Of a stretch of 64,000 bases of DNA, positions 10,627 to 53,417 are shown piece by piece. Source of the stretch: Dechloromonas aromatica (nom. nud.). GTDB lineage: Bacteria > Pseudomonadota > Gammaproteobacteria > Burkholderiales > Rhodocyclaceae. Location of the stretch: NCBI GenBank assembly GCA_017848965.1, contig JAFIHA010000024.1, positions 86,111 to 150,110 of the forward strand. Direction: 5' to 3'. The notes beneath the pieces were generated by a model. It searched no databases. It saw only the letters and a program-made list of their open reading frames with translations, and was not told the origin of the DNA. Numbering within the stretch: position 1 is the stretch's first letter; the number at the start of each line of letters is the position of its first letter. Position numbers and translations under genes: made by a program.

Positions 10627-10628
10627 AG

Positions 10629-10656
10629 GGCAAGGGCCGCGGCGGCGGCCCTTGCC
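10629..10656. terminator. Convergent hairpin
   Basis: A perfect 11-bp stem, GGCAAGGGCCG / CGGCCCTTGCC, with a 6-nt loop lies between the kinase stop and the stop of the convergent acyl-CoA ligase gene. No U-run follows on either strand. Confidence 0.5.
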
Positions 10657-10663
10657 TGGCTGC

Positions 10664-12301
10664 TTACTCGATGGCGAGCACCGATTTCGCCTGCTGGCGG
10701 AGAACGTATTTCTGGATCTTGCCGGTCGAGGTCTTCGGCAGGACGCCGAAGGCGACCTGCTTCGGCACCTTGAAGCGGGCCAGGTGGCCGCGGCAATGCT
10801 CGATGATGTCGGCCTCGCTGCAGTCGGCGCCGGCCTTCAGCTCGATGAAGGCGGCCGGCACTTCGCCCCATTTCTCGTCCGGCTTGGCGACGACGGCGGC
10901 GGCGATCACCGCCGGGTGGCGGTAGAGGACGTCCTCGACTTCGAGCGAGGAGATATTCTCGCCGCCGGAGATGATGATGTCCTTGGAACGGTCCTTGATC
11001 TTGACGTAGCCGTCGCTATGCACCACCGCCAGGTCGCCGGTGTGGAACCAGCCGCCGGCGAAGGCTTCCTCGGAGGCCTTTTCGTTCTTCAGGTAGCCCT
11101 TCATCACCAGGTTGCCGCGGAACATGATCTCGCCCATCGTCTCGCCGTCCCAGGGTACCGGCTGCAGGGACACCGGGTCGAGCACGGCGATCGCTTCCTG
11201 CATGTGGTAGCGCACGCCCTGGCGGCCGTTGCGGGCGGCCTGCAGGTCGATCGGCAGGCGCTCCCATTCCGGCTGCTTGGCGCAGACCGAGGCCGGGCCG
11301 TAGGTTTCGGTGAGGCCGTAGACGTGGGTGATGTTGAAGCCCATGTTCTGGGCGCCCTCGATGATCGCCGCCGGGGGCGCGGCACCGGCGATCAGGCCGT
11401 TGACCGTCTGTTCGATGCCGGTCTTGAGCTCGGCCGGGGCGTTGATCAGCATGCCGTAGACGATCGGTGCGCCGCACATGTGGGTCACCTTGTGTTCCTT
11501 GATCAGGCCGAAGATCAGCGTCGGATCGACCTTGCGCAGGCAGACGTTGGTGCCGGCGTTGGCGGCCAGTGTCCATGGGAAGCACCAGCCGTTGCAATGG
11601 AACATCGGCAGCGTCCACAGATAGACCGAGTGCGGTGGCATGCCCCAGGAGATGATGTTGGAAGCGGCGTTCAGGTAGGCGCCGCGATGGTGATAGACGA
11701 CGCCTTTCGGGTTGCCGGTGGTGCCCGAGGTGTAGTTGAGGGTGATCGGGTCCCATTCGTCGGCCGGCAGTTCCCAGGCGAATTCCGGGTCGCCGTTGTC
11801 GATGAAGGTTTCGTAGTCGATTTCGCCGAGCGCTTCGCCGCCGGTGAACTCGGGGTCGAGGCTGTCGATGACCAGCGGCTTCGGCCCTTCGAGCAGGGCC
11901 AGGGCGTCCTTGATCACAGCCGAGAACTCGGGGTCGGTGATCAGCACCTTGGCTTCGCCGTGGGTCAGCATGAAGGCGATGGCTTCGGCGTCGAGGCGGG
12001 TGTTCAGGGTGTTGAGGACGGCGCCGCTCATCGGCACTCCGAAATGGCATTCGAACATGGCGTTGCTGTTGGGCAGCATCGCCGCCACCGTGTCGCCCTT
12101 GCCGATGCCGCGCTGCTGCAGGGCCGAGGCGAGCTGGCGGCAGCGCGCGTAGCTGTCCTTCCAGGTGTAGCGCTGGGCGCCCTGGATCACGGAAATCCGC
12201 TTCGGGTAGATGAAGGCCGAGCGTTCGAGGAAAGTGAGTGGGGAAAGCGGGATGTAATTGGCCGGATTCTTGTCGAGTCCATTGGCGTAGGGGTTGGTCA
12301 C
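10664..12301 (-). CDS. AMP-dependent fatty acyl-CoA synthetase
   Basis: 545-residue ANL-superfamily ligase that activates a carboxylic acid to acyl-AMP and then acyl-CoA. Motifs: P-loop [19 protein letters not shown]5 [11 protein letters not shown]7 [11 protein letters not shown]8 [20 protein letters not shown], and the catalytic lysine region [14 protein letters not shown] near the C-terminus. It resembles medium-chain or methylmercaptopropionate-type ligases, but the substrate cannot be read from sequence. The start is GTG 12301 with AGGAG 8 nt upstream; an ATG further upstream falls in the AT-rich promoter. Confidence 0.9.
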
Positions 12302-12569
12302 GTGCTGTCTCCTGCGTGCGTTGATGGGTTGGTGGTGATTAACAATGAGTAAACTGCGATTTATAGCGGAAGACATTCAATTGTTGCAATGCAAAAATTT
12401 GTTTAATAAACAATGAATTGTTGCAATTAATCATTGCGAATCAAATTACGCAAAATCGTGACAAGGAAACACTTCGAGGCTATTTACTACAGCTAGTGAA
12501 AATTTCGATGTTTGATACTAAATATGGTGTCTGTTGCTTGACTGAGGGAGGCGGCGGGGCTAGACTTTG
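12302..12569. promoter_or_regulatory. AT-rich divergent intergenic region with paired ATTGTTGCAAT
   Basis: No gene seen. The 11-mer ATTGTTGCAAT occurs at 12380-12390 and 12417-12427, 37 bp apart, inside an unusually AT-rich stretch just upstream of the acyl-CoA ligase. The spacing and partial dyad symmetry suggest operator sites for a regulator of the ligase. The promoter for the nrd leader must also lie in this interval. Confidence 0.45.
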
Positions 12570-12775
12570 CCGCGTTGATGGTTCCCGCAAGGGATCAAAA
12601 GGGAATCCGGTGCCAGGCTGTCTGCCTGAAATCCGGGGCTGCCCCCGCAACTGTCATCGGCGAGCGTTCCACCCATCTTTGCCACTGGTTTCGTACCGGG
12701 AAGGCGGTGGAAAGCGTTGAACCGAGAGCCAGGAGACCTGCCGCAACGTCCTTCCAACCAACGATGGGGCGGGGT
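12570..12775 (+). ncRNA. Cobalamin riboswitch upstream of nrdA
   Basis: Conserved AdoCbl riboswitch blocks occur in order: GGGAATCCGGTGCC (12601-12614), CCCCGCAACTGT (from 12642), GCCACTGG (12681-12688), GGGAAGGCGG (from 12698) and GAGCCAGGAGACCTGCC (from 12725). About 135 nt of expression platform separate it from the nrdA start. It should shut off the downstream B12-independent ribonucleotide reductase operon when cobalamin is plentiful. Confidence 0.93.
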
Positions 12776-12910
12776 GTCCCTGGCGAAAGGTATGAGCGTG
12801 ACGGTTTTTTTGTTGTTTTCGGGAGTTGAGCGCAGCCGGCTGTTGCCGGATGGCATGCTTCCGGCCGTCACCCGCTGCCCCGGCTCCGCCCCCCGAACCG
12901 GAGCAAGCTC

Positions 12911-15659
<2,749 letters not shown>

Positions 15660-40599: not shown

Positions 40600-40923
40600 C
40601 CATGCGCGTCTAGCAGTTCTGCTTCTTCGCCAACCGTCAGGCGTGCAAGGTCGGGGTGTGTCTTTCCGGAGCAGAAAACGTCTTGTCCCGACTTCACCAA
40701 CAGGCCAGAGAGAGGACGGAAGGGGAGATATTCGAGAGCAGGGGGGCGGCCTTGAGGTCAAGGTGGATGGCATGCCGAGCGTCCTGGTGTGTATGATGCT
40801 TGGGTTTGTGCGTTTGGCATGAGTTTCCGGTGTTCTTGTATGTCATGGGAAATGAAGTGCCCTGATGTTTTCCTGGGGCTTGCTTGCCAATTCATTCCCC
40901 CCTTTCCCTGGAGGCGTGACCTC
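40600..40923. other. Intergenic region, no gene seen
   Basis: 324 bp between the SCO gene and the hydroxylase, with no ORF I can support. Base composition becomes less GC-rich toward the right, marking the left border of the unusual 41-50 kb region. Confidence 0.45.
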
Positions 40924-41478
40924 GTGATACCGTCCGTACTTCGCCTGCCGTTGAATTTTGCGCCCAACCGCCTGCAGGCTGATTTGGCGCATCTGCAATC
41001 GCAACAGTGGTTGCCTCATTTCAATACCCGCATCTATGACGGCGACTGGAGCGGCTTGCCCCTGCGCGCCGTGCCCGGTAGCGTCATCCCGATGTATTCG
41101 GACCCGCAGGCCGAAACCTGGGAAGACACCCCGCTGCTGCAAAGCTGCGACTACTTTCCGGAAGTGCTGGCGACTTTCCAGTGCCCTCTGTTGGCGGTGC
41201 GTTTGCTCAGACTGGGTGCGGGCTCAGTCATCAAGGAACACCGCGATCCGATGCTGAGCCCGGAACATGGTGAAGTGCGCATCCATGTCGTGGTGGCGAC
41301 GAACCCCGATGTGGAGTGTCGTATCGACGGGGTCAGTTATCGTTGGGCGGCCGGCGAATGCTGGTACGGGAACTTCACCTTGCCGCATAGTTTCACCAAT
41401 CGTGGTACGACCGAGCGCTTGCATATCGTGCTCGATTGCAAGCTCAACGATTGGTTGCGCGGTTTGCTTGAGGCCTGA
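40924..41478 (+). CDS. Aspartyl/asparaginyl beta-hydroxylase-like 2OG oxygenase
   Basis: 184 residues. Fe(II)/2-oxoglutarate oxygenase motifs of the Asp_Arg_Hydrox family are present: IKEHRDPMLSPEHGEVRIHVVV (first His and substrate Arg/His), then GECWYGNFTLPHSFTNRGTTERLHIVLD (second His and 2OG-binding Arg). The GTG start (40924) has GGAGG about 9 nt upstream; upstream in-frame ATGs lack one. It is followed after 4 bp by a Nif11-like small gene and then a sulfotransferase, suggesting a peptide- or protein-modifying unit. The target is unknown. Confidence 0.82.
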   Translation: MIPSVLRLPLNFAPNRLQADLAHLQSQQWLPHFNTRIYDGDWSGLPLRAVPGSVIPMYSDPQAETWEDTPLLQSCDYFPEVLATFQCPLLAVRLLRLGAGSVIKEHRDPMLSPEHGEVRIHVVVATNPDVECRIDGVSYRWAAGECWYGNFTLPHSFTNRGTTERLHIVLDCKLNDWLRGLLEA

Positions 41479-41482
41479 GCAG

Positions 41483-41701
41483 ATGGACGGAAGCAGCGAA
41501 GAGGCAATTCAGGCCCTGCGTCGAGTCGTGCATGACGATCCCGTCCGGCAAGCGCGCCTGTTTGCCTTGACCGATGCCAGCGAGTTTGTTGCCGCCGTGT
41601 TGCAAATAGCGCAATCCCAAGGGATCGGGCTACAGGAAGAAGCCGTGTGGCAGGCGATGCGCAGCGGTCGCCGCGCCTGGTCCGACAGAAAGCGGCCATG
41701 A
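41483..41701 (+). CDS. Nif11-like small protein (possible RiPP precursor or carrier)
   Basis: 72 residues. The stretch HDDPVRQARLFALTDASEF and the following helix AAVLQIAQSQGIGLQEEAVWQAM fit the Nif11 leader pattern (DP...Q.RL...TD..EFV......G). There is no Gly-Gly cleavage motif and no Cys/Ser/Thr-rich core; the C-terminus is basic (SGRRAWSDRKRP). It sits between the hydroxylase and sulfotransferase genes, overlapping the latter by ATGA. It may be a substrate, a recognition partner of these enzymes, or a stand-alone regulator. Confidence 0.65.
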   Translation: MDGSSEEAIQALRRVVHDDPVRQARLFALTDASEFVAAVLQIAQSQGIGLQEEAVWQAMRSGRRAWSDRKRP

Positions 41702-42666
41702 CGGACATGGACAGGCTCGCCGGTTGGATACCGCTGTTCTTGTCGATGCGCGACGCCAAGGCGCAAGTGGATTGGGGCTACATGGGAGCGGAGCGATTCA
41801 CCGAGCCGTTCTGTCATGACACATTGGCCAGGCTGGCGGCTCGGCCATTCAACCAGTTGTTGCGCCAGCAGAGCAGTTTGGAGCTGTTGCTGGAACGCGC
41901 ATCGAGCCATCCCGGCCTGCCGCTGCAAGGTATGGTGTTTCACCTGAGCCGTTGTGGCTCGACCCTGGTGGCGCAATGGCTCTCGGCGCTCACCGATAGC
42001 GTGGTGCTGTCAGAGCCGGAAGCTGTGGATAGCTTGTTGCAATGGCCCGCCCCGGCGGCGGGGGCGGAAACAATTCGCGCCTTGCTCGCCGCACTGGGTC
42101 AGCCGCGCCGCGTTGCTGATCGTCGCCTGTTTCTGAAAACCGATTGCTGGCATACCGCCCACATCGATCGCTTGCTGGCGGCCTATCCCGATACGCCCTG
42201 GATTTTTCTCTACCGCGATCCGCTGGAGGTACTGGTGTCGCATCAGAGAATGCCGGGCTGGCATCTGGTACCGGGCTCGATGAAAGCCCACGGCCTGCAG
42301 CCGCCCGATGAACTGATGAGCCAGCCGCTCGGACATGGCGCTTGGGTGCTGTCCGTCATTCTCGAACAGGCCAGGCATGCCATGCAGCATCACGGTAACG
42401 GTTTGCTGATCAATTACGACGAATTGCCCGATGCCCTGGAGAACCGACTGGCCGCCCACCTCGGCATCGATCTGGCGAGGCAGGATGTGGAGAGCCTGCG
42501 CGCGCTAACCGGGCGTAGCGCCAAGCGGGCTTACATGGCTTTTCAACCCGATGGCGCCGACAAACGCGCTGCCGCCGATTCTGCTGTGCTCGAAATGGTG
42601 GAACGCTGGCTGATCGAGCCCTATCAATCTCTGGAGAAAATCCGCAAGGAGAAGGGCTCTGCCTGA
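41698..42666 (+). CDS. PAPS-dependent sulfotransferase family protein
   Basis: 322 residues, cytoplasmic. The 5'-phosphosulfate-binding loop is seen in FHLSRCGSTLVAQWL (about residue 82), and the 3'-phosphate region in PWIFLYRDPLEVLVSHQR. It transfers sulfate to hydroxyl groups of a small molecule or peptide. The start ATG overlaps the Nif11-like stop (ATGA), so the three genes 40924-42666 form one unit. Substrate unknown. Confidence 0.82.
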   Translation: MTDMDRLAGWIPLFLSMRDAKAQVDWGYMGAERFTEPFCHDTLARLAARPFNQLLRQQSSLELLLERASSHPGLPLQGMVFHLSRCGSTLVAQWLSALTDSVVLSEPEAVDSLLQWPAPAAGAETIRALLAALGQPRRVADRRLFLKTDCWHTAHIDRLLAAYPDTPWIFLYRDPLEVLVSHQRMPGWHLVPGSMKAHGLQPPDELMSQPLGHGAWVLSVILEQARHAMQHHGNGLLINYDELPDALENRLAAHLGIDLARQDVESLRALTGRSAKRAYMAFQPDGADKRAAADSAVLEMVERWLIEPYQSLEKIRKEKGSA

Positions 42667-42935: not shown

Positions 42936-43853
42936 ATGAGCCCATTTCGTAGTTACCGCATCCATGGCCTGACAGTTCTCTCAGCCTTGGAGCTTCCAGA
43001 ACTGTTTGAGGCGCCGATCGATATCCCGGCGGATGTCTTTGTCGATCTTGGCGAAATTTCCGAGCGATTGCCGTCGATTGCCGATCAAGGTCCGATGTGG
43101 CAGGCCGGCGAGGGGCGCTTTCTTCTGGAGGTGCCGGAGGTCGCCCGCTATCTGGTCACGGATGGCAAGCAAGTTCGAATCGACCCCGAGCCTGGCGTGG
43201 CGCCCGGCGATATCCGCTTGTATCTGCTCGGCGCGGTGCTGGGGGTTGTGCTGCACCAACGCGGTCTGTTGGCCCTGCATGCCGGCGCTGTCGAGGTGAA
43301 CGGTCAGGCCGTGGCGTTCGCAGGGAATTCCGGTGCCGGCAAGTCCACCCTGGTGGCACATTTGCGCCAACGCGGTCATCGTCTCATCGGCGACGATCTG
43401 CTGGCGATAAGTTTGGATCGTGAAGGCCAGCCCTGGGCCCAGCCCAGCTTCGCCCGCATCAAGCTCTGGGCAGACGCCCTGTGCCACATCCGCCACGAAC
43501 CCGAGCGACTGGTGCGCGATCATTCCCGTCTGGAGAAATTTCATCTGGCGGTGGAAGAGGATCACCGCGACCTGCCCCTGCCTCTGGCACGGGTTTATCT
43601 TCTGGAGGAAAACCGCCTCGACGATGGCGTCGTCATTGAGCCGTTGCGCGGTCTGGATGCCGTCAATGCTTTGGCGCAAATTACCTACAGGCCCCAGCAT
43701 GTCAAGGCGCTGGGGCTGGGGCAGTGGCAATTCCAGCAGTGTAGTCGAACCGCGAACCGCATCCAGGTACTACGGTTATGCCGCCCCAAATCTCTCGCTC
43801 GCATGGAAGAGGTATTGGATCGTGTGGCGCTGGCGTGGCGTCAGGATGCCTGA
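42936..43853 (+). CDS. HPr-kinase-like serine kinase (lasso-peptide kinase type)
   Basis: 305 residues. A P-loop GNSGAGKSTLVAHL (about residue 130) and an HprK-like acidic motif HRLIGDDLLAI follow an N-terminal domain with LLALHAGAVEVNGQAVAFAG. This short form without the HprK N-domain is the type found in lasso peptide clusters, where it phosphorylates the C-terminal Ser of the precursor (paeninodin type). It converges on the asparagine-synthetase-like cyclase gene. Start ATG 42936 matches family N-termini, though no clear Shine-Dalgarno is seen. Confidence 0.82.
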   Translation: MSPFRSYRIHGLTVLSALELPELFEAPIDIPADVFVDLGEISERLPSIADQGPMWQAGEGRFLLEVPEVARYLVTDGKQVRIDPEPGVAPGDIRLYLLGAVLGVVLHQRGLLALHAGAVEVNGQAVAFAGNSGAGKSTLVAHLRQRGHRLIGDDLLAISLDREGQPWAQPSFARIKLWADALCHIRHEPERLVRDHSRLEKFHLAVEEDHRDLPLPLARVYLLEENRLDDGVVIEPLRGLDAVNALAQITYRPQHVKALGLGQWQFQQCSRTANRIQVLRLCRPKSLARMEEVLDRVALAWRQDA

Positions 43854-43858
43854 AGATT

Positions 43859-43887
43859 TGGGGCGACAGCAAGGAATTGGCGCCCCA
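43859..43887. terminator. Convergent hairpin
   Basis: TGGGGCG / CGCCCCA 7-bp stem with a 15-nt loop between the kinase stop and the convergent cyclase stop. No U-run; weak call. Confidence 0.35.
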
Positions 43888-43897
43888 TTCGCACCAT

Positions 43898-45835
43898 TCA
43901 TTCGTTCCCTCCTTCCATCTTGCGGATGAACATTCCGACCGAGAGACCACGCAATAATTTGAGTTTGTATTCGCTGATCACCTCCGGCCGGGTCCAGCCC
44001 GTCGTGGGCCAATCGTCCAGGGCCTGGCGCATCGCTTTCAAATCCAGCAGGCGGGCCGCCGTCGGCGAAGCTTCCAGCCGATCCAGCTCGGCCGCCATTT
44101 CGTCCCGCTCCCGGCCTGCTGTCTCATACCAGTCGGCGGATTGCAGCCCCTTGCTTCGGGCGTACAGGATTTCCGGCGGTAGCCGGTCGCCGTATGCACG
44201 GTGCAGCAGCCAGCGCATCTGTCCATTGCGCAGGAACTGGTTTTCAGGGATGGCCAGGCAGAATTCCAGCAAGCGTACGTCGGCGGTGGGGTCGCGCTCG
44301 ACGACGCCGGCCTGGGCCAAGGCGTCGAGATAGCTGTCACCCAGATCAACTCGGTAAAGCACCATGAGACGGGCAGCCCGGCCGTCGTGCCAAGGGCGGT
44401 AGCTGAGCCGGAGCTTGCCCTTCTCAGCCCTGGCGCGAATATCCAGAGCATGGGCGACATCAGGATGCAGTGCGGAGAGTCTGAACAGGCCAGAGAGATC
44501 GCCTCGCCGCTGTCGGCTGAGTCTGGACCAAAGCCATTCGGGCATGAACGGCCCCAGCGATTGGCTCAGGATCGATTTCCAGCCCATGGCGCCTTGTCGC
44601 TGCAAGGCGCGGGACTCGCGCAACCAGGCCCAGGGCCGGCCTTGCCGTAACAATGCCGGTAATAACATGCGGCCATCGAAAGACAATCCCATATTGCCCC
44701 ATTGCCCGGTCAGAACGACCCGTGCCCCTCGCGCCTCCGCTGCGTTGCGGATGGCGTTGATCCACAGGGCATTGCTTGGATTAAGCAGCGGTCTTGAGGT
44801 GTGTTGGGAATGCCGGTCAAGCTCGCTTAAATGCCGCTCGTCGGTACGAATCAGAATGTGATCCATATTCGGGTGGCGTACCGCCAGCGCGGCGGCGGCG
44901 GGGCCTTCGTCGGCGTGGCGCCCCCTGGGGGTGGGGCCGTCAAATCCCTCCCTGGGGACATGCGTGAAGGCCAGCAATTTCTTGTTTCGTTCCGCCAGTA
45001 TGGGGGCTGCCACGGCACATACGGAGCTGCTGTCGAAGCCGGAACTGAGATGCGCCCCTATTTCTCCCCGTGCCCGTAGTCGGCAACGGACAGCGGTTTC
45101 CATGTGTTCTCTGAAGGCTTCGACGTAATCCTCGTCTTGTGGAAGCTCAATGCGGCGTTCCGCAGAGAAACGGTGGTAACAGGTCGTACGTACGCTGCCG
45201 TTTTGCATGATCAAGTGGTGTCCCGGTTCCAGGCGCTGGATGCCCAGAAAGCAACTCGATGGGCCAACCCAGGGGATCAGGGCCAAATATTCCGCCAGAC
45301 GTTCCTGATCCAATTCCCGAGGGATTTGCGGTAGCGCATGCAAGGCCTGGGCAGCGGAGGCGAAGGCGAAAAATCCCTTGCCCTGATGCCAGTAGAGGGG
45401 GCGCATGCCCATCGGGTCACGGGCCAGGAACAGGCATTCCGTCAAGGGTGACCAGACGGCGAAAGCGAAATCCCCCAACAGGTGCCGGGGGGATTCTTCA
45501 CCCCAGGCCTCATAGGCGGACAGCACCAGGGCGCTGTCTGCCATGTTCCGTACCTGAGCGGAAGGGATTCGCAGTTTCTGGGCCAGTTCATCCCGATTGT
45601 CCAGGCGTCCGGAAAAGACCAGTACTGGCTTGTTGCCGCCGTTGTTCAAGGGCTGACGATCGAAAACGTCTTCCGGCGTGAAGCGGCGTAAGCTACAAAC
45701 CAAGGCGGCTTGATTGCGCCGCCAGGCGCGGCTGACTTCCGGTCGGTAAATTGCCAAGGCTTGTAGCAGACGCTCGGTGTCATCCTGGCTGATGGCGTCC
45801 CCTTGTCTCCTGATGATTCCGGCAATTGTGCTCAT
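43898..45835 (-). CDS. Asparagine synthetase-like macrolactam synthetase (lasso cyclase type)
   Basis: 645 residues. The N-terminal Ntn-hydrolase-like domain begins MSTIAGIIRR, so the nucleophilic Cys2 of true glutamine-dependent AsnB is absent. The C-terminal synthetase domain keeps the ATP-pyrophosphatase loop as HLSSGFDSSSV and downstream VLTGQWGNMGLS. Loss of glutaminase with retention of adenylation is the hallmark of lasso cyclases (protein C), which activate an Asp/Glu side chain for ring closure. It is divergent from the putative precursor at 45984 and near a PqqD/RRE gene and an HprK-like kinase. It could instead serve another amide-forming pathway. Confidence 0.85.
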   Translation of the reverse strand: MSTIAGIIRRQGDAISQDDTERLLQALAIYRPEVSRAWRRNQAALVCSLRRFTPEDVFDRQPLNNGGNKPVLVFSGRLDNRDELAQKLRIPSAQVRNMADSALVLSAYEAWGEESPRHLLGDFAFAVWSPLTECLFLARDPMGMRPLYWHQGKGFFAFASAAQALHALPQIPRELDQERLAEYLALIPWVGPSSCFLGIQRLEPGHHLIMQNGSVRTTCYHRFSAERRIELPQDEDYVEAFREHMETAVRCRLRARGEIGAHLSSGFDSSSVCAVAAPILAERNKKLLAFTHVPREGFDGPTPRGRHADEGPAAAALAVRHPNMDHILIRTDERHLSELDRHSQHTSRPLLNPSNALWINAIRNAAEARGARVVLTGQWGNMGLSFDGRMLLPALLRQGRPWAWLRESRALQRQGAMGWKSILSQSLGPFMPEWLWSRLSRQRRGDLSGLFRLSALHPDVAHALDIRARAEKGKLRLSYRPWHDGRAARLMVLYRVDLGDSYLDALAQAGVVERDPTADVRLLEFCLAIPENQFLRNGQMRWLLHRAYGDRLPPEILYARSKGLQSADWYETAGRERDEMAAELDRLEASPTAARLLDLKAMRQALDDWPTTGWTRPEVISEYKLKLLRGLSVGMFIRKMEGGNE

Positions 45836-45983
45836 GGTTGGGGGTCAATGCGTGGGTTGGGTGTGATCGTCGCCAGGCAATATCCTCGGCATAATATTGC
45901 TTGTCTCGGTCAGCGTTTGGTCGATAAAATCGGTAGCGTAGCATTCTTATTCATCATTCATTCTGGTTTGGAGGTCATCCGTC
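45836..45983. promoter_or_regulatory. Divergent promoter with GCAATAT/ATATTGC inverted repeat
   Basis: Between the cyclase and the putative precursor an inverted repeat, GCAATAT (45877-45883) / ATATTGC (45894-45900), has its centre near the middle of the interval and could be a shared operator. A strong ribosome binding site GGAGG sits 9 nt before the precursor ATG. Regulator unknown. Confidence 0.45.
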
Positions 45984-46136
45984 ATGCAAGAGCAAGAAAC
46001 AGTTGATGTCATGGTTCAAGAAGCCATCGTTGAAGGCCGCAAGGAATGGCAAGCCCCGAAGCTGCGCTCCTCCAGGATCGATCTCAGTACGCAAGCTGAC
46101 TTGGCTGGTTCTGATGACGGTGGTTTGCTGTCCTGA
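45984..46136 (+). CDS. Putative lasso-type RiPP precursor peptide (50 aa)
   Basis: 50 residues from a well-placed ATG with a GGAGG site. The leader contains EWQAPKL, matching the Tyr/Trp-x-x-Pro-x-Leu motif bound by PqqD-type RRE proteins. Then comes DLSTQ and a possible core ADLAGSDDGGLLS. Thr at -2 before the core fits the lasso pattern. Asp7 or Asp8 could close a ring with Ala1. The C-terminal Ser fits phosphorylation by the HprK-like kinase at 42936. It is divergent from the cyclase gene and ends before a shared terminator. The tail after the ring would be very short (5-6 residues). Core boundaries are inference. Confidence 0.68.
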   Translation: MQEQETVDVMVQEAIVEGRKEWQAPKLRSSRIDLSTQADLAGSDDGGLLS

Positions 46137-46220
46137 TTCGATACGGCAACAGGGCGCGGTGCGGTGATTCGCCTCATAAGCTGATTCTTGCACTTGCCTT
46201 TCCGCGCCTCTAGGTGATGT

Positions 46221-46250
46221 AAAAAAAGCCCCTGCCTTGGCTGGGGCTTT
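46221..46250. terminator. Bidirectional intrinsic terminator
   Basis: AAAGCCCC / GGGGCTTT hairpin with an A-run on the left and a TTT on the right. It lies between the rightward precursor gene and the leftward MdpB genes and would serve both. Confidence 0.8.
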
Positions 46251-46270
46251 GTCGTTATCATGCCGTTGGA

Positions 46271-46807
46271 TCAGTTACGAGAAGGCCAAACTCCCTCCAG
46301 CGCGATACAGAAACGCAGCACCATGTAAGGCTGCATGTTGGCGTGAGGCTGACTACCGCCGGTGACACCGACAGCCTGTGGACTCATATAGACGGGATTG
46401 GCCGTGTCATTCGTGTCATAGAGTTCCGTCCCGGCACCATTTTGACGGAAGACCCCCGGATAATTGCCGGTGGGGGCCGCCGTCTCGGTGACTTCACGCT
46501 CGAAGGATAGCGTGTGGTTGTGGTTGGCCATTTGGCTCTGGTTCAGGGTGACCGTGTAGTCGCCGCCGGTGGAGCCATAGGCTCGGGGAGTGAGCCCCGG
46601 ACCGCTACCTTGGCCCATCGGCAAGCGACCCATGAGGTTGGGCAGGTTGAAGTTGGTCCTGCCATCCCCTCCGAAGGTGGTGCCAACGATGGCGTAGAGC
46701 GCTTGGTACTGGGCGAGTGACATCTGCTGCCCGTTACAGTCCGCCCAGTTGTAGGGGGGGTAGGTGTAGGGGTAAATGTGGATTTCCCCGATGAATGGTT
46801 CAGCCAT
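46271..46807 (-). CDS. MdpB-like tail-collar protein 1
   Basis: 178 residues of the microcystin-dependent protein/phage tail collar family: start MAEPFIGEIHIYPYTYPPYNWADCNGQ, collar motif FGGDGRTNFNLPNLMGRLPMG, the ANHNH segment, and the conserved C-terminus PHANMQPYMVLRFCIALEGVWPSRN. A GGAGA site precedes ATG 46807. It is the last of three paralogues transcribed leftwards into the terminator at 46221. Family function is unknown; these proteins are secreted or tail-fibre-like without a phage context. Confidence 0.85.
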   Translation of the reverse strand: MAEPFIGEIHIYPYTYPPYNWADCNGQQMSLAQYQALYAIVGTTFGGDGRTNFNLPNLMGRLPMGQGSGPGLTPRAYGSTGGDYTVTLNQSQMANHNHTLSFEREVTETAAPTGNYPGVFRQNGAGTELYDTNDTANPVYMSPQAVGVTGGSQPHANMQPYMVLRFCIALEGVWPSRN

Positions 46808-46819
46808 GGTGGTCTCCGT

Positions 46820-47347
46820 TCAATTCCGGCTCGGATATTCACCCTGCAGCGCCACGATGAAGCTGAGGGCCATGTAGGGCATCATGTTGGCATGGGCTTG
46901 GTTGCCTCCCACCATGCTCAAGGTATCGCTCGGGGCCGCGACGGGTTTGTCGAAAGTCGCCTGGGTCTCGTACAGGGTGTTGCCGGCTCCGACATTGGCC
47001 AATACGTTGCCGTTGGGAGACGGCAAGCTGGCAAGATCGGTATTGGCCATCCAGGCATGGTTGTGCTGGGGCAGATTGGCCGTGAGCACGGTAACGGTTT
47101 CCGTGCCGGAAGCGGACCCTAAGAGGCGTGGGGTCAAGCCGGTGCCGGTGCCGAAGTGGATGGGTACCCGGCCGCGCAGATCAGGCAGGCCTAAGGTCTG
47201 CACGCCATCGCCACCGTAGATCGTGCCAAACAGGCTGAAGAGGACTTGGTATTGAGAAATCGGGACTGTCTGCCCGAAACACATCGACCAATTCACCGGT
47301 GCGTAGTTACCCGCGAATAGCCGAATTTCACCTACAAATGCATCCAT
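46820..47347 (-). CDS. MdpB-like tail-collar protein 2
   Basis: 175 residues. MDAFVGEIRLFAGNYAPVNWSMCFGQ at the start, collar motif YGGDGVQTLGLPDLRGRVPIHFG, LPQHNH, and C-terminus HANMMPYMALSFIVALQGEYPSRN. It shares the end SRN with its neighbours but is diverged, so the three are old paralogues. GGAAC lies before ATG 47347. Confidence 0.85.
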   Translation of the reverse strand: MDAFVGEIRLFAGNYAPVNWSMCFGQTVPISQYQVLFSLFGTIYGGDGVQTLGLPDLRGRVPIHFGTGTGLTPRLLGSASGTETVTVLTANLPQHNHAWMANTDLASLPSPNGNVLANVGAGNTLYETQATFDKPVAAPSDTLSMVGGNQAHANMMPYMALSFIVALQGEYPSRN

Positions 47348-47362
47348 GGGAAGTTCCTTTCG

Positions 47363-47884
47363 TCAGTTGCGGCTGGGGTAATAACCCTGCATGGCGATAC
47401 AGAAATTGATTGCCAGGTAGGGCTGCATGTTGTTGTGGGGAGTGCCTTCCCCCACATTGGAGACCGACTGCTGCCCCATGACCGAAGCGCTGCCGCTGGC
47501 GTAGGGGGCATAGGCCGTTGCCTTTCCGGATGGCGTTTGCGCCAGATAGAAGGTGGCATTGGGAACCGCCAGATTGGCCACTTCGTTGGAGGCCTTCACC
47601 ATGTGGTTGTGAGCCGGCATGGTATTGATGGTGAGTGCCTCGGTTTCGCTTCCACCAATAGCGCCGCGCGTGGAAAACTGTGCGCTGTAATGCATCGGTG
47701 CCCGGCCTTGCAGGTTGGGCAGGGCAAAGGTGCTGCTGCCGTCGCCGCCAAAGCTGTTGTACAGCAGGCTAAACAGCGCCTGGTTTTGATTGACGGGCAA
47801 AATTGCCCCGTTGCAGAACGACCAGTTGTGGGGCGCGAAGTTGAACCCGAAAGTGCTGATCTGGCCGAGGAATGGATCCGCCAT
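47363..47884 (-). CDS. MdpB-like tail-collar protein 3
   Basis: 173 residues. MADPFLGQISTFGFNFAPHNWSFCNG, collar motif FGGDGSSTFALPNLQGRAPMHY, MPAHNH, and C-terminus PHNNMQPYLAINFCIAMQGYYPSRN. AGGAGA precedes ATG 47884. It is the first of the three-gene run downstream of a DUF6916 gene, a typical companion. Confidence 0.87.
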   Translation of the reverse strand: MADPFLGQISTFGFNFAPHNWSFCNGAILPVNQNQALFSLLYNSFGGDGSSTFALPNLQGRAPMHYSAQFSTRGAIGGSETEALTINTMPAHNHMVKASNEVANLAVPNATFYLAQTPSGKATAYAPYASGSASVMGQQSVSNVGEGTPHNNMQPYLAINFCIAMQGYYPSRN

Positions 47885-48161
47885 AGCATTTCTCCTGATG
47901 AGTTTGGAACGGTGGCGGGGGGATGGCAGCTCCATCAATAAAACCTCCGCCGGCTTGGTAAACGGCTTGGTGGCGTCGACATCGAGGACGTAATGCCAGC
48001 CCTCCACGCAAAACCACATTCACCGCGTGAGCCGTGCGTCGCGATAACCTCCCAGGCGATGCCGGGAAAGCCGTCGGCGCATCGTTTTTCATGGTGTGGC
48101 AAGAACAGCGACCAACTGCGTCAGTTTCGGGCATGCCATGATGCATGCCTTACAGGGAGGT
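47885..48161. other. Unassigned stretch, possible gene remnant
   Basis: 277 bp between DUF6916 and MdpB3. The minus strand has an open stretch in frame with MdpB3 (including FCVEGWHYVLDVDATKPF) without a good start site, which may be a decayed gene. No family recognised. Confidence 0.3.
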
Positions 48162-48464
48162 TCAGTTGAAGACTGCCTGGTAAATCATGGCCGTCTCTTC
48201 CCGGCCTACGGGGACCAGAAATATGGCGTGCTCAAAGTCACCCTCTGCGCTGAGCAGGTAAGTTCCTTGTTGCAGTGGCAGTTCGAGCGGGCCTTGAAAA
48301 ATTAGATGAAAGGGATCGCGGCCTCCCCTGAAACGGCCTTTGCGCTGGTAGGGGGTGACTTCAGTCAGTCGCAACAGGATGCCTCCTTGTTCCAGGGGGA
48401 GTTTGAACTCCTGGTCCAGCATGGGAAGGAAATTGTCGATGTCGAGCGCGGTTGGGGCGGTCAT
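48162..48464 (-). CDS. DUF6916 family protein
   Basis: 100 residues. The pattern HLIFQGPLELPLQQGTYLL and the end FLVPVGREETAMIYQAVFN match DUF6916, small beta-rich proteins found next to MdpB genes. Start ATG 48464 has AGGAGG 5-10 nt upstream; an extension to 48509 is unlikely. Function unknown; an accessory or structural partner of MdpB proteins is inferred. Confidence 0.75.
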   Translation of the reverse strand: MTAPTALDIDNFLPMLDQEFKLPLEQGGILLRLTEVTPYQRKGRFRGGRDPFHLIFQGPLELPLQQGTYLLSAEGDFEHAIFLVPVGREETAMIYQAVFN

Positions 48465-48561
48465 GTGTTCCTCCTGTATTGCGGTGATTGCCGACTTTGG
48501 AGATGTCATAGTAAGTTATCATAAACTTGTCTGGTCAAAGTTATGTACAGGGGACTAAATA

Positions 48562-49071
48562 ATGCTCGTGGGTAATTCACCCCTTCCCGACAATCTGGGC
48601 ATCCGCCCGGCGCGTCCGGAGGACAAGGGATTTATCGAATCCCTGTATCGGTCGACGCGGGACGATCTACGCCTGATCGATGCCGAGACGGATTTCATCG
48701 AGGAATTGATCGGCATGCAGCAGCGCGCCCAGGGGCAGGGCTACGGAGAGATGTTTCCGAATGCCATGTATTTCGTGGTGGAACACCTCAACGAGCGCAT
48801 CGGCCGTATCGTGGTGGACTTCGGCCCGAACGAGATTCGGCTGGTTGATCTGGCTTTCGTCCCTCAGGCACGAGGGCGCGGTTTTGGCGTCACGGTGATC
48901 AAGGCGATGCAGTTCGCCGCCGGACAGTCAAGGGCACCACTGACCCTGGCGGTGAACCGGACAAATGTCCGCGCTCGTCAACTCTATCTCTCTCTCGGAT
49001 TTCGTGTCGAACAGAGCGATGTGATGACAGAGTATATGGCGTGGTATCCAACCGCCGCCTTTATGCAATGA
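48562..49071 (+). CDS. GNAT family N-acetyltransferase
   Basis: 169 residues. The acetyl-CoA-binding motif A is seen in FVPQARGRGFGVTVIKAM, followed by LAVNRTNVRARQLYLSLGFRVEQSDVMTEYMAW at the C-terminus. GGGGA precedes ATG 48562. It is divergent from DUF6916 and leads into the PqqD gene 79 bp downstream. GNAT genes often accompany MdpB cassettes; the substrate is unknown. Confidence 0.85.
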   Translation: MLVGNSPLPDNLGIRPARPEDKGFIESLYRSTRDDLRLIDAETDFIEELIGMQQRAQGQGYGEMFPNAMYFVVEHLNERIGRIVVDFGPNEIRLVDLAFVPQARGRGFGVTVIKAMQFAAGQSRAPLTLAVNRTNVRARQLYLSLGFRVEQSDVMTEYMAWYPTAAFMQ

Positions 49072-49149
49072 GTGGTTTCCGTCGGAAAACGATTCAAGGA
49101 CATGGGGCTTGTTAACTGCGGCGGGAATTGACATGGGAGCAGTAGCTAG

Positions 49150-49437
49150 ATGATGAACGTCGAGTTGGACAGTGTCGTTGTTCAGGGACGCGAACAGATT
49201 TGTGCCGAGGTGGATGGCGAGGTAGTGATGATGAGCATCGCCCAAGGCAATTACTACGGTCTGGACAGTATCGGTGGGCGGGTTTGGGAACTCATCGCCG
49301 AACCGTGCAGCGTCAGGGAACTGTGCGACCGACTGGTCGTTGAGTTCGCTGTCGATCGAGCCACTTGCGAGGCAGATATCCTGTGTTTTCTCAACGATAT
49401 GGCAGCGCAGAAACTGATCGACACGCGGACGGATTGA
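49150..49437 (+). CDS. PqqD family / RiPP recognition element protein (lasso B1 type)
   Basis: 95 residues. The PqqD fold signature is clear: ICAEVDGEVVMMSIAQGNYYGLDSIGGRVWELI, then CSVRELCDRLVVEF and CEADILCFLNDMAAQKLI. This form, with YYGLDSIG, is the stand-alone RRE (protein B1) seen in lasso clusters, where it binds the leader Tyr-x-x-Pro motif. The expected B2 transglutaminase-like protease gene does not follow; a methyltransferase gene starts 3 nt after the stop instead. Confidence 0.85.
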   Translation: MMNVELDSVVVQGREQICAEVDGEVVMMSIAQGNYYGLDSIGGRVWELIAEPCSVRELCDRLVVEFAVDRATCEADILCFLNDMAAQKLIDTRTD

Positions 49438-49440
49438 TTC

Positions 49441-50427
49441 GTGGCCGTCGATCGTCTTGCTGAATTCCGGAATATCTGTGCCCCCTTGTTTTCCGAATCA
49501 GCCTTTCCCGGGGAGCAACTGGCAACTGCACACCAGTTGTTCGATCTGCTCAGTGGCATCGTCGGTTACGATGACACGGCACCCACCCGGACCGAGGTGA
49601 CGGATATCTTTCTGCCCACCGGTAAGGCTATTGCTTTCCAAGGCGCTGCGCGTTGCCTTTGGGAATATGCCCGCACCAGTAAATTTCTGCGCGGCGTGGA
49701 GGCGGCGTTACGCGAGGCGCAGCGACGTTTTCCCGGTCAACGCTTGCGCTTGCTGGAAGCCGGCTGCGGGCCGTTCGCCTTGTTGGCATTGCCCTTGGCA
49801 TGCCGCTTTGAGCCGGCCGAAGTGGGCTTCACCCTGCTCGATGTTCATGAACGCTCCCTGAGTGCGGCACGCCGCATTGTCGAGACGCTCGGGTTGGCCG
49901 ACTATGTCGAGGGCTACGTGCGAACCGACGCCGCCACTTGGCGTTGCCCGGAAGCGAAGCGGCCCCATGTGGTGGTCTCCGAAACGATGCAGAACGGCTT
50001 GAAGAACGAACCCCAGCTGGCGATTACCCGCAACCTTGCGCCGCAACGCCTGCCCGGTGGCTTGTTCTTGCCTGAGGCGGTGGCTCTGGATTTTTCGCTG
50101 CTCACCCATCACAGGGACAATAACGAGGTGCCAATATCGCGGAGCCATCCCGTTGCCACCGTGTTCGAACTGACGCCGGATAATCCTGAGGCGGCGCTTT
50201 CCGGTCGGATAACGTTACCGACACCCTTGCCCAGCAACGCTATTCCAGTCATCAACACGCGCATCCGGGTCTACGGCGATATTTGCCTGGATGAGAACGA
50301 GTGTAGTCTGACCATTCCCATCCCGATCAGAACGCTTCCGGTTTTGGCGGCGGGGCAGGTCCTGGATTACGCGTACTTGTGGCACCCGCGACCGAGGATG
50401 CACTTTTCAACGATGGCGACAGGCTGA
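49441..50427 (+). CDS. SAM-dependent methyltransferase (class I, PRMT-like outline)
   Basis: 328 residues. SAM motif I is RLLEAGCGPFALLALPLA (about residues 100-117), followed by GFTLLDVHERSLSAARRIVE. The later stretch SETMQNGLKNEPQLAITRNL and LPGGLFLPEAVALDFSL resembles arginine methyltransferase-type proteins. GTG start 49441 lies 3 nt after the PqqD stop, so co-translation with the RRE is likely. It may modify the peptide product; target residue unknown. Confidence 0.75.
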   Translation: MAVDRLAEFRNICAPLFSESAFPGEQLATAHQLFDLLSGIVGYDDTAPTRTEVTDIFLPTGKAIAFQGAARCLWEYARTSKFLRGVEAALREAQRRFPGQRLRLLEAGCGPFALLALPLACRFEPAEVGFTLLDVHERSLSAARRIVETLGLADYVEGYVRTDAATWRCPEAKRPHVVVSETMQNGLKNEPQLAITRNLAPQRLPGGLFLPEAVALDFSLLTHHRDNNEVPISRSHPVATVFELTPDNPEAALSGRITLPTPLPSNAIPVINTRIRVYGDICLDENECSLTIPIPIRTLPVLAAGQVLDYAYLWHPRPRMHFSTMATG

Positions 50428-50507: not shown

Positions 50508-52157
50508 TCAATCCAGCCATGCGCCCAGATGGTTGGCAAGTGTTGTGCCCAAGTCATCGACCTGGCGCAGGCTGATTGAATTCCGGTAGTAACGGCCAAT
50601 CTGATGACCGATGCCGATGGCTCGCAGCTGGATATCGGTGTTTTTTTCCACCCAGGAAACGACTTGCTGCAGATGCTGGTCCAGATAACTGCGGGGGTTG
50701 GCCGTCAGCGTGGCTTTATCCATCGGAGCCCCATCGCTGACGACGATAAGCAGGCGGCGTGCTTCCGCCCTTCCTGTCAGGCGCTGGCAGGCCCACCACA
50801 GGGCCTCTCCATCGATGTTTTCCTTGAGCAAGTCTTCTTTCAACATCAACCCCAGGCTCAGTCGCGCACGTCGCCAAGGCGTATCCATGGATTTGTAGAC
50901 GATGTGGCGCAACGAGTTGAGGCGACCGGGGCTGGGAGGACTGCCCGCCTGGGCCCAGCGTTCCGCGGGGGTCCCGCCTTCCCAATCTGCCGTGGTGAAG
51001 CCCAATATTTCCACCTTGATGCCGCAGCGTTCCAGCGCGCGGGCCAGAATGTCGGCGCAGAGCGCGGCGACCGTGATGGGATGGCCGCGCATGGAGCCAG
51101 AGTTGTCAAACAGCAGGGTGACGCAGGTTTGGGGGAACAGCCCCTCTTCCTCGATCCGGAATATCTCGGTTCGGTTGGGGGCGGCCACCAGACGGGCCAG
51201 ACGGCTAGCGTCGAGCAGCCCCTCTTCCTGATCCAGAGACCAGTTGCGGCGTTGGCGTGCGAGCAGCAGGCGCTGCAACCTGTGGGCAAGCCGGGTTACC
51301 AGCCCGCGATAAGGCAGTAGTTCCCCATCGAGACGCAGACGCAAACGATTCAGTTCTGCAGCGTCGACGAGCTTGCGGGCATCTACCACACGGTCATGGG
51401 ACGAGTCGTAAACCTGGTAGTTGCGCATCAGAACCTCGGGTAGAGGTGGCGGTGCGGTGCCGGGGATGCTGTCCCGGGGCGACTCGGCGACCTGAGGCTC
51501 GCCGTCCGAATCTTCCTCATTGCCTTCAACCTGGCTGTTTTCCCCGGAAAACTCCTCATCTGCAGCGGGGACGGAATTCGGGTCTGGTCCGGATGGATCA
51601 AGGCTGGATGTGGCGGGAAATTTTTTTTCCAGTGCCAGGGCCAGGCTGCTGGCCCGATTGGCGAATTCGATCGGGTCGTCGATGTGCCGGGCAAGAAGGC
51701 TCAATGCCTTGGCGACTTCCTCCGGGCAACTTGTCGATTGCCCAAGAAAAATGCCATAGGCCCAGGCCCGCAAGCGATCTCGCGGGTTTGCCGGAAGCGC
51801 CGGGCGGAAGGCCAGATTGCTGGCAATGCCGGCTAGCCAGCGTGCACCCAGTGCTTCGGCGCGCGCTTCTTCGAGAGCATCGAACAGGCTGCCACCCAGT
51901 GCTCGCGGTCGGTTTTGCCGAGCCGTCTCGGGCAGTCGATAGCGGATGTGGCAAGCGGTGGCATCGGCGTTGCCACGTAGCGCACAGTGGCTGTCGACCA
52001 ATACCAGGTCGGCTTGCCCAGCCAAGGTACGGGCACAGGCGGCGTTGAGTGCCTGCTGTCTTGCCTCAGTAGAAGCTGGCGTTTCCCGACTCAAGAGGGA
52101 GTTCCTGATCAAAACAGCGTTGGAAGTATTCGGCGACCAGTGGCTTTTCAGCGTCAT
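50508..52157 (-). CDS. cobT: CobT-like von Willebrand A domain protein (cobaltochelatase subunit)
   Basis: 549 residues. It has an N-terminal helical part, an acidic central linker (EEFSGENSQVEGNEEDSDGE) and a C-terminal VWA domain with the MIDAS motif in LFDNSGSMRGHPI and VVSDGAPMDKATL. This is the CobT layout of the aerobic cobaltochelatase CobNST, in which CobS and CobT form an AAA+ chaperone for Co insertion into hydrogenobyrinate diamide. No CobN is in the window. The start is uncertain because ATG 52157 overlaps cobS by 92 bp; later TTG starts are possible. Confidence 0.82.
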   Translation of the reverse strand: MTLKSHWSPNTSNAVLIRNSLLSRETPASTEARQQALNAACARTLAGQADLVLVDSHCALRGNADATACHIRYRLPETARQNRPRALGGSLFDALEEARAEALGARWLAGIASNLAFRPALPANPRDRLRAWAYGIFLGQSTSCPEEVAKALSLLARHIDDPIEFANRASSLALALEKKFPATSSLDPSGPDPNSVPAADEEFSGENSQVEGNEEDSDGEPQVAESPRDSIPGTAPPPLPEVLMRNYQVYDSSHDRVVDARKLVDAAELNRLRLRLDGELLPYRGLVTRLAHRLQRLLLARQRRNWSLDQEEGLLDASRLARLVAAPNRTEIFRIEEEGLFPQTCVTLLFDNSGSMRGHPITVAALCADILARALERCGIKVEILGFTTADWEGGTPAERWAQAGSPPSPGRLNSLRHIVYKSMDTPWRRARLSLGLMLKEDLLKENIDGEALWWACQRLTGRAEARRLLIVVSDGAPMDKATLTANPRSYLDQHLQQVVSWVEKNTDIQLRAIGIGHQIGRYYRNSISLRQVDDLGTTLANHLGAWLD

Positions 52158-53064
52158 CGCACTTGTTCAGGAAAGTGAGCCGGAAAGCAGTGCTCAGACT
52201 GCCGAAGATACGGGTGTTTTCGGCCCAGCTGATTACCGTGCGGGGCGACATCACCGTCGATAACTCGCCATGCATGAAACTGGTACGGGTCAGGTCGGCC
52301 AGCGAGACCATGGCCGAGACCAGAGCGCGATTTTCCGGTGTGGCGTATTCCGGCATCCTGGACAGGACGATTTCGACCTCCTTGTCATGGGCAAGGTAAT
52401 TGAGCGTGGCGACGATGTGCCAGCGGTCGAGCTGGCCTTGATTGATCGGTTGGGTGCCGTGGTAAAGACCGCTGACATCGCCAAGGCCGACGGTATTGGC
52501 GGTGGCAAAGAGGCGGAAGGCCGGATGTGGGGTAATGACGCGGTTCTGGTCCAGCAAGGTGAGTTTTCCCTCCACCTCAAGCACGCGCTGGATGACGAAC
52601 ATCACGTCCGGGCGACCCGCGTCATATTCGTCGAAGATCAACGCGGTTGGGTGCTGCAAGGCCCAAGTAAGGATGCCGGGGCGGAACTCCGTGATCTGCT
52701 GGCCGTTGCTGACGACGATGGCGTCCTTGCCGACCAGGTCCATGCGCGATACGTGGCTATCCAGGTTGATCCGGAGGCACGGCCAGTTGAGCTGCGCCGC
52801 GACCTCCTCGATGTCGCTGGACTTGCCGGTGCCGTGGTATCCCTGCAGCATGACTCGCCGGTTGTGGGTGAAGCCGGCAACAATGGCGAGGGTGGTTTCC
52901 GGATCGAATTGATAGCTGTCATCGCGCAGGGGAACGTGTTCCGATCTGGTGGAAAAGGCTGGAACCCTGAGGTCGGAATCGATCCCGAATGTGTCGCGGA
53001 CAGACAGGGTGGTATCGGGCCCCGGCCAAAGGGGGGCGGCTGAAGCGTCTGCGGGAATGTTCAT
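52066..53064 (-). CDS. cobS: CobS-like AAA+ ATPase (cobaltochelatase subunit)
   Basis: 332 residues. Walker A GYHGTGKSSDIEEVAAQL, Walker B ALIFDEYDAGRPDV, sensor 1 RLFATANTVG, and the CobS-specific GLYHGTQPINQGQLDRW. Start ATG 53064 (MNIPADASAAP) is chosen because upstream codons to 53166 look untranslated. It overlaps CobT. It is a MoxR-like ATPase that works with CobT on a partner chelatase. Confidence 0.88.
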   Translation of the reverse strand: MNIPADASAAPLWPGPDTTLSVRDTFGIDSDLRVPAFSTRSEHVPLRDDSYQFDPETTLAIVAGFTHNRRVMLQGYHGTGKSSDIEEVAAQLNWPCLRINLDSHVSRMDLVGKDAIVVSNGQQITEFRPGILTWALQHPTALIFDEYDAGRPDVMFVIQRVLEVEGKLTLLDQNRVITPHPAFRLFATANTVGLGDVSGLYHGTQPINQGQLDRWHIVATLNYLAHDKEVEIVLSRMPEYATPENRALVSAMVSLADLTRTSFMHGELSTVMSPRTVISWAENTRIFGSLSTAFRLTFLNKCDDAEKPLVAEYFQRCFDQELPLESGNASFY

Positions 53065-53417
53065 GGGGTGATTTGCGTCTGGGGCAACGTGTCTTGCCTC
53101 GTGCATAACTTTGTAAGCGGAGACCGCCAGCTTGCGATAAATTTTTCTGGCGCGCAATGCCGTCAATGTGTTCGTGCGAACAATTCGGCGATTGTCACTG
53201 GCTCGTCTCCGGGGAGGTTTGAATGAGCCAATCGGGGAGCGATGGAAACCGGGTTGGCTGAAGTGTCAGCCAGACGGTCACGGCCAAACGCTGGCGCTTG
53301 TGTAAGAATCGCGCCGTCTGGCGCGACCAATGGAAACTACTCCTTCGTGGCCCGGTCCACGGAGAGGCGGAAGGCAATCCCGCCGCCATTGGTTGCCGTA
53401 GTCCGGAAGGTTTCATC
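53065..53417 (+). other. Structured leader region upstream of msrAB
   Basis: 353 bp without a gene of normal size. GGGGAGG precedes a 12-aa ORF (53223-53261, beginning MSQSGSDG) whose stop lies in the stem of a perfect hairpin TGGCTGA / TCAGCCA (53255-53272). A second perfect hairpin, TCGCGCC / GGCGCGA, is at 53309-53326. This could be a leader/attenuator-like region; weak evidence. Confidence 0.35.

Follow-up and report, generated by a model that had tools for sequence, protein, structure and literature searches.

A candidate lasso peptide pathway without a leader protease gene of its own lies in a 64,000-nucleotide stretch of the Dechloromonas aromatica assembly GCA_017848965.1 (contig JAFIHA010000024.1, here C62, positions 86111-150110), which reaches the contig end and is referred to as the window. 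The source genome, G000, has a completeness of 99% and is assembled into 68 contigs that total 4.24 Mb. Scoring of the window proteins against Pfam and NCBIfam models, together with motifs, places at this locus a precursor peptide (A), a macrolactam cyclase (C), an HprK-like kinase (K) and a PqqD-type RiPP recognition element (RRE, also B1). These genes are interspersed with those of three tail-collar (MdpB) proteins, a GNAT acetyltransferase and a DUF6916 protein, and genes for a hydroxylase-like protein, a sulfotransferase-like protein and a probable methyltransferase lie at the two sides. An earlier note, written from the sequence of the same stretch, had read positions 42936-50427 as a kinase-type, lasso-like cluster without a recognisable B2 protease.

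Pathway genes and predicted core

The lasso-type cyclase is encoded on the minus strand at 43898-45835. The lasso isopeptide cyclase model NF033535 is its top NCBIfam match (332 bits, 7e-99, below the strict cut-off of 525 bits), ahead of an asparagine synthase model with 183 bits. Its N-terminus reads MSTIAGI, with Ser at residue 2 instead of the glutaminase Cys, and its ATP-pyrophosphatase loop is SSGFDS. A scan of the genome contigs with the window cyclase alone as query returned no relative, and an alignment of 14 cyclases was too diverse to serve as a search query. The kinase (42936-43853, plus strand) scores 33.1 bits against PF07475, where the cut-off is 33.3, and retains all of the His-Lys-Asp-Asp residues that the available part of a review names as kinase residues (PMC9266682); the same four are retained in 18 of 20 aligned kinases. 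The RRE (49150-49437, plus strand) exceeds the cut-off of the lasso PqqD model NF033536 (93.3 vs 80 bits), and its sequence matches the solved lasso RREs 9x90_B (6.5e-20) and TbiB1 (5v1u_A, 2.8e-15) in the PDB. The glutaminase-dead cyclase, the kinase and the RRE named in the earlier note are borne out, and its assignment of them to a kinase-type lasso pathway is supported.

The precursor open reading frame (ORF; 45984-46136, plus strand) encodes the 50-residue peptide that the note had also singled out. It has GGAGG 9 bases ahead of its ATG, and neither Pfam nor NCBIfam contains a model that matches it. In the leader, WQAPKL conforms to the consensus [Y/W]xxPx[L/V/I/A/F/Y] given in PMC13381572. 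The predicted core, ADLAGSDDGGLLS, has 13 residues and would be divided as ADLAGSDD-GGLLS or ADLAGSD-DGGLLS, leaving a tail of 5-6 residues that ends in Ser13; Thr stands at position -2 before Ala1, and Asp7 and Asp8 are the candidate ring acids.

This register was compared with that of peptides encoded beside other cyclases. Sixty motif-bearing small ORFs lie near 23 cyclases, 6 of which have no candidate, and 20 of the 60 end in Ser; 18 peptides from 17 loci were tested, omitting the 40 with a different last residue and two Ser-ending ones in L041, whose distances to the cyclase are 8.6 and 4.4 kb. With the core allowed to start 15, 16 or 17 residues past the leader Trp/Tyr, Asp or Glu occurs at ring position 7-9 in all 18 (an average of 9.96 in 2000 shuffles, none of which reached 18), and Thr(-2) together with such a ring acid in 12 (an average of 2.2, with none of the 2000 reaching 12). 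Leader motif and final Ser had served to choose these peptides, so their common final Ser partly reflects the choice and does not count as independent evidence; in the Acidobacteriaceae loci L125 and L129, leader-motif candidates end in Ser-Gly and Ser-Ala. A ring acid at 7-9 agrees with lasso ring sizes in the available part of PMC9266682. The same 8+5 design is found in a second kinase-type set of G000 on contig C65 (AGGPGLTD-AGVLS) and, by reading, in Pseudomonas alcaligenes L113 (AGGPGITD-AGFLS) and in L103 (SGGRVGID-GASLS), a locus described below.

Two further arrangements were observed among these loci. Halomonas and its kin (L108, L110, L111 and L139) have lasso loci with two Ser-ending candidates and at least two kinase genes. 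An alphaproteobacterial metagenome-assembled genome (L116:6088-11935) encodes two tandem lasso-type cyclases, with two Ser-ending candidates ahead of the first; the other models have no match in its 16-kb stretch.

The locus resembles paeninodin-type systems (PadeK, ThcoK, SyanK; the bsf cluster) in a lasso-type cyclase, albeit one that scores below the strict model cut-off, in its kinase with His-Lys-Asp-Asp, its separate RRE, and a precursor that combines a [Y/W]xxPx[L] leader with Thr(-2), a ring acid at 7-9 and a C-terminal Ser. It differs from them in having no linked B2, exporter or nucleotidyltransferase (NT), in a predicted core of only 13 residues, and in its MdpB-GNAT-DUF6916, hydroxylase, sulfotransferase and methyltransferase genes.

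A B2 protease encoded on another contig

No match to the B2 family model PF13471 was found within the 64-kb window, in line with the earlier note, which had seen no such protease in the cluster. The genome-wide search for an unlinked B2 that it had proposed gave a single PF13471 match in G000, on contig C60. This protein scores 74.7 bits against the lasso B2 model NF033537 (cut-off 33) and retains its Cys and His, and it is accompanied by an ABC exporter (D) and a PF14907 nucleotidyltransferase. The genome has five PF00733 matches, all of them on other contigs, and the C60 set has no cyclase. The PqqD gene directly ahead of the C60 B2 is split over two frames (L002:9602-9896), so this protease would need an RRE from elsewhere.

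Relatives in other genomes join the two gene sets. A Proteobacteria metagenome-assembled genome contains one locus, L103, with kin of both. Identity to the window proteins is 60% for the cyclase, 57% for the kinase, 66% for GNAT, 54% for the methyltransferase, 49% for B1, 45% for DUF6916 and 33% for the sulfotransferase, and the three window MdpB proteins pair one-to-one with L103 MdpB proteins (MdpB 1 56%, MdpB 2 59%, MdpB 3 52%). Identity to the C60 proteins is 58% for B2, 61% for D and 51% for NT. In G656, NT, D, B2 and B1 genes in that order adjoin a cyclase 48% identical to that of the window, and B2, D and NT share 65%, 62% and 48% identity with those of C60. In G613, an MdpB-type lasso locus without B2 lies on one contig and B2-D-NT on another (63%, 60% and 44% identity to C60, respectively). 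An apparent B2-D fusion in G613 was rejected, since B2 and D are overlapping ORFs read in different frames.

The association of B2 with such cyclases extends to the wider sample of 398 genomes of the phylum, 49 of which have PF13471 over the cut-off. B2 passes the cut-off in 9 of 10 genomes with a window-type cyclase vs 40 of 388 others (Fisher p 3e-8), a figure that includes linked B2 genes, and a PF13471 match is present in 12 of the 13 genomes with a cyclase match. Within the fetched stretches, a B2-less cyclase locus coexists with a B2 elsewhere in G000, G613, G240 and G372.

We regard it as probable that the genome encodes a paeninodin-type phospho-lasso pathway distributed over two loci, with A, K, RRE and C in the window and B2, D and NT on C60. 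Supply of B2 in trans is favoured mainly because L103 and G656 link both sets and G613 separates them. Product formation and leader cleavage, as predicted from sequence, would proceed as follows. Window B1 would bind the WQAPKL leader, the still linear precursor would be phosphorylated on its C-terminal Ser by the kinase, and the C60 B2 would cleave after STQ; the cyclase would then adenylate Asp8 (or Asp7) and join that Asp to Ala1. Decoration of the phosphate may fall to NT, and export of the product to D. The available part of PMC8498205 describes pseudomycoidin, to which the kinase in the window and the NT adjoining B2 and D on C60 offer a parallel; unlike there, the NT here is unlinked to the cyclase, and glycosylation is without support.

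Several observations weigh against this arrangement. The cyclase stays below its strict cut-off, and the kinase falls short not only of the PF07475 threshold but also of that of HprK_rel_A (42 of 200 bits). No AspH homologue was found in the L103 locus, and ST2, which L103 shares with 17 further cyclase loci, was not found in the window. The inclusion of linked genes in the B2 enrichment counts on the same side, as does G198, a genome of 96% completeness in which no B2 was found either at the cyclase locus or elsewhere. The pieces of the C60 B1 are closer to an RRE on contig C28 than to the window RRE, and RREs can discriminate precursors and peptidases, according to the accessible part of PMC13381572, so the C60 B2 may serve C28 and not the window. 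C28 (L013:6066-8139) carries a third PqqD-cyclase pair, truncated by the contig end; the PqqD of this pair is the closest relative of the split one on C60. With 68 contigs, one of them ending inside a lasso set, a further B2 may be unseen.

The C65 set (L014:5916-9320) consists of PqqD, cyclase, precursor and kinase, with no B2 nearby; its precursor, MEAQNKQVWEAPEL...AGGPGLTDAGVLS, scores 23.6 bits against the paeninodin model NF033524 (cut-off 27). Two more PqqD-domain matches in the genome (G000:C17:106332 and G000:C4:9041) adjoin no PF00733 match.

The MdpB module and the extent of the cluster

Three MdpB genes follow one another on the minus strand at 46271-46807 (MdpB 1, PF07484, 84.8 bits), 46820-47347 (MdpB 2, PF07484 match) and 47363-47884 (MdpB 3, PF07484, 81 bits). 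Beyond them lie the DUF6916 gene (48162-48509, minus strand; PF21880, 82.9 bits) and the GNAT gene (48562-49071, plus strand; PF13508 and PF00583). MdpB 1 weakly matches the T4 short tail fibre by sequence (E 0.007), a likeness to phage tail-collar proteins in the PF07484 domain; unlike in those, MdpB here forms a triplet with GNAT and DUF6916 beside a lasso pathway. The structure model of DUF6916 is beta-rich and confident, with a predicted local distance difference test (pLDDT) score of 87.7. Its fold search gave nothing significant (best E 0.11 in the PDB, a lambda portal/neck entry, and 0.018 among viral models), and a kinship to phage head-tail proteins is a lead only.

DUF6916 occurs in 44 of the 398 phylum genomes. 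Forty further DUF6916 loci mostly carry MdpB (37) and GNAT (36) and include a lasso cyclase once, so MdpB-GNAT-DUF6916 is a module in its own right, one that turns up from time to time next to divergent lasso cyclases. The idea that lasso clusters always include MdpB was rejected: it is present in 3 of 37 loci of one set of cyclase relatives, and the modules mostly stand alone. Across 58 cyclase loci (duplicates L107 and L109 dropped; L051, L053, L054 and L073 fetched for MdpB or DUF6916), MdpB lies near 16, or near 12 of 54 once the four loci fetched in that way are set aside, presence being a lower bound where contigs end early. In Novispirillum itersonii (L128:4867-9668), six consecutive MdpB genes, GNAT and DUF6916 stand directly ahead of a lasso cyclase.

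Might the module then be a common stand-alone element that landed by lasso genes by chance? We hold this possible and on balance rather unlikely. The low share of DUF6916 sites with a lasso cyclase (8 of 47, even when 7 known lasso-locus sites are counted) and the rarity of MdpB in the set of 37 speak for it, as does the cyclase tree, on which the MdpB label is unclustered (400 of 500 shuffles as low). Against it, 30 of the 32 PF07484 matches in 13 cyclase-bearing genomes have a lasso-type cyclase no more than about 10 kb away (a partial one in G085), the other two being in G453. On the same tree of 22 rows, the MdpB label needs 8 changes, at least 6 of them forced by well-supported branches, with some rows scored absent lying on short contigs and four loci scored present not coming from the cyclase search. 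The one-to-one pairing of the three window MdpB proteins with those of L103 also argues against chance, and so do sulfotransferase homologues, found at 7 of the 16 cyclase loci with MdpB and at 0 of the 42 without it (p 3.8e-5; a weak match in L114 falls below the cut and is uncounted).

The earlier note had taken the split transcription units and the mixing with MdpB genes as pointers to a possibly different product or mechanism. This part did not hold up: many genomes have MdpB next to a lasso cyclase, and in L103 the set is linked and nearly complete, so mixed strands and MdpB are no pointer to another mechanism by themselves. Promoter and terminator counts are at shuffle level.

To the left of the kinase lie three plus-strand genes. 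The first, at 40789-41478, encodes an aspartyl/asparaginyl beta-hydroxylase-like protein (AspH; PF05118, 57.6 bits), with a tentative start within the ORF. A small ORF (41483-41701) follows, whose stop overlaps the ATG of the sulfotransferase-like gene (ST; 41698-42666; PF13469, 29.4 bits, cut-off 27). The small ORF has no Pfam or NCBIfam match and was taken to be Nif11-like; by eye, it resembles the N-terminus of longer ST proteins (L045, L046 and L050) and, in L091, the C-terminal part of the AspH-like protein. To the right, the gene at 49441-50427 (plus strand) presumably encodes a class I S-adenosylmethionine methyltransferase (MT), a call that rests on the motif LEAGCGPF. This protein has no Pfam, NCBIfam or PDB sequence match, and its structure model was rejected as useless (pLDDT 43.6). 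Two ORFs on the minus strand at 50508-53166 we take to resemble a VWA-domain protein and a MoxR-type ATPase.

AspH and MT homologues form a single ORF in G613. This fusion mixed the MT profile with AspH, and the MT match in L091 is really AspH. Since AspH and MT flank the window cluster and are fused in G613, the cluster can be argued to span 40.8-50.4 kb; the extent proposed in the note holds all the parts that it named, and its left edge is probably too short, the cluster probably reaching left to 40.8 kb. L091 and L092 (about 8800-14400) carry MdpB, DUF6916, GNAT, AspH and ST, but no lasso cyclase, and their module adjoins a 697-residue protein with an N-terminus that we read as RRE-like. 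As ST tracks MdpB and these cyclase-less loci carry AspH and ST, both enzymes may act on the MdpB side. A separate module joined to the pathway would consist of MdpB, GNAT and DUF6916 and may also include AspH, ST and MT. Some Firmicutes lasso clusters contain a sulfotransferase gene and an NT gene, according to the available part of PMC8498205.

Nature of the product and significance

With a tail of only 5-6 residues, the ring might be unthreaded. Alternatives to a threaded lasso are a branched cyclic phosphopeptide and a linear, polyphosphorylated peptide of the LPP kind; we consider such a product a minority possibility. Very short predicted tails, GGLLS in the window, AGVLS on C65, GASLS in L103 and AGFLS in L113, would favour it, and LPP systems also have an RRE, an HprK-like kinase, an NT and an MsbA-like exporter, as described in the available part of PMC13381572. 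However, LPPs are without a cyclase in that text, whereas the window (43898-45835) and L103 encode one of lasso type, and the ring acid at 7-9 in all 18 peptides agrees with lasso rings. The suggestion in the earlier note that the product may differ from known lasso peptides therefore stands as a possibility on account of the tail, and not on account of the gene layout. A pathway that needs no B2, with a host protease removing the leader or the cyclase closing a core released otherwise, is improbable: B2 is unlinked at the window, C65, G613 C3, G372 C3 and C7, G198 and G240 C1 (fetched stretches), and pseudomycoidin synthesis reportedly proceeds without leader and leader peptidase, going by the title of the 2019 paper of Zyubko, but four of the five genomes with B2-less loci own an unlinked B2 (the exception being G198) and B2 is linked at 30 of 58 cyclase loci, in stretches often cut by contig ends.

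The protease gap thus likely has an ordinary answer, a B2 elsewhere in the genome, and what remains surprising is the recurring tail-collar company and the very small predicted core. A speculative and rather doubtful extension is that the phospho-lasso peptide and a trimeric, tail-tip-like MdpB form one system, in which the MdpB assembly would carry, present or sequester the peptide and the hydroxylase, sulfotransferase, methyltransferase and acetyltransferase would perhaps modify that assembly; if true, a phage-tail-derived tip would serve a ribosomal natural product. In the open-licence literature, with subscription papers mostly outside it, we found no paper on a partnership between lasso peptides and MdpB or tail-collar proteins, as judged by titles and the opening of abstracts, and none on a lasso peptide with an unlinked leader peptidase.

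If the two-locus phospho-lasso pathway is right, lasso loci without a linked protease are not necessarily broken, a remote protease may serve several loci, and genome-mining rules that require a linked B2 would miss such loci. MdpB-type collar proteins, for which we found no described role, would be tied repeatedly to a defined peptide pathway, and phosphorylated cores of about 13 residues would probe how short a peptide can be and still be threaded.

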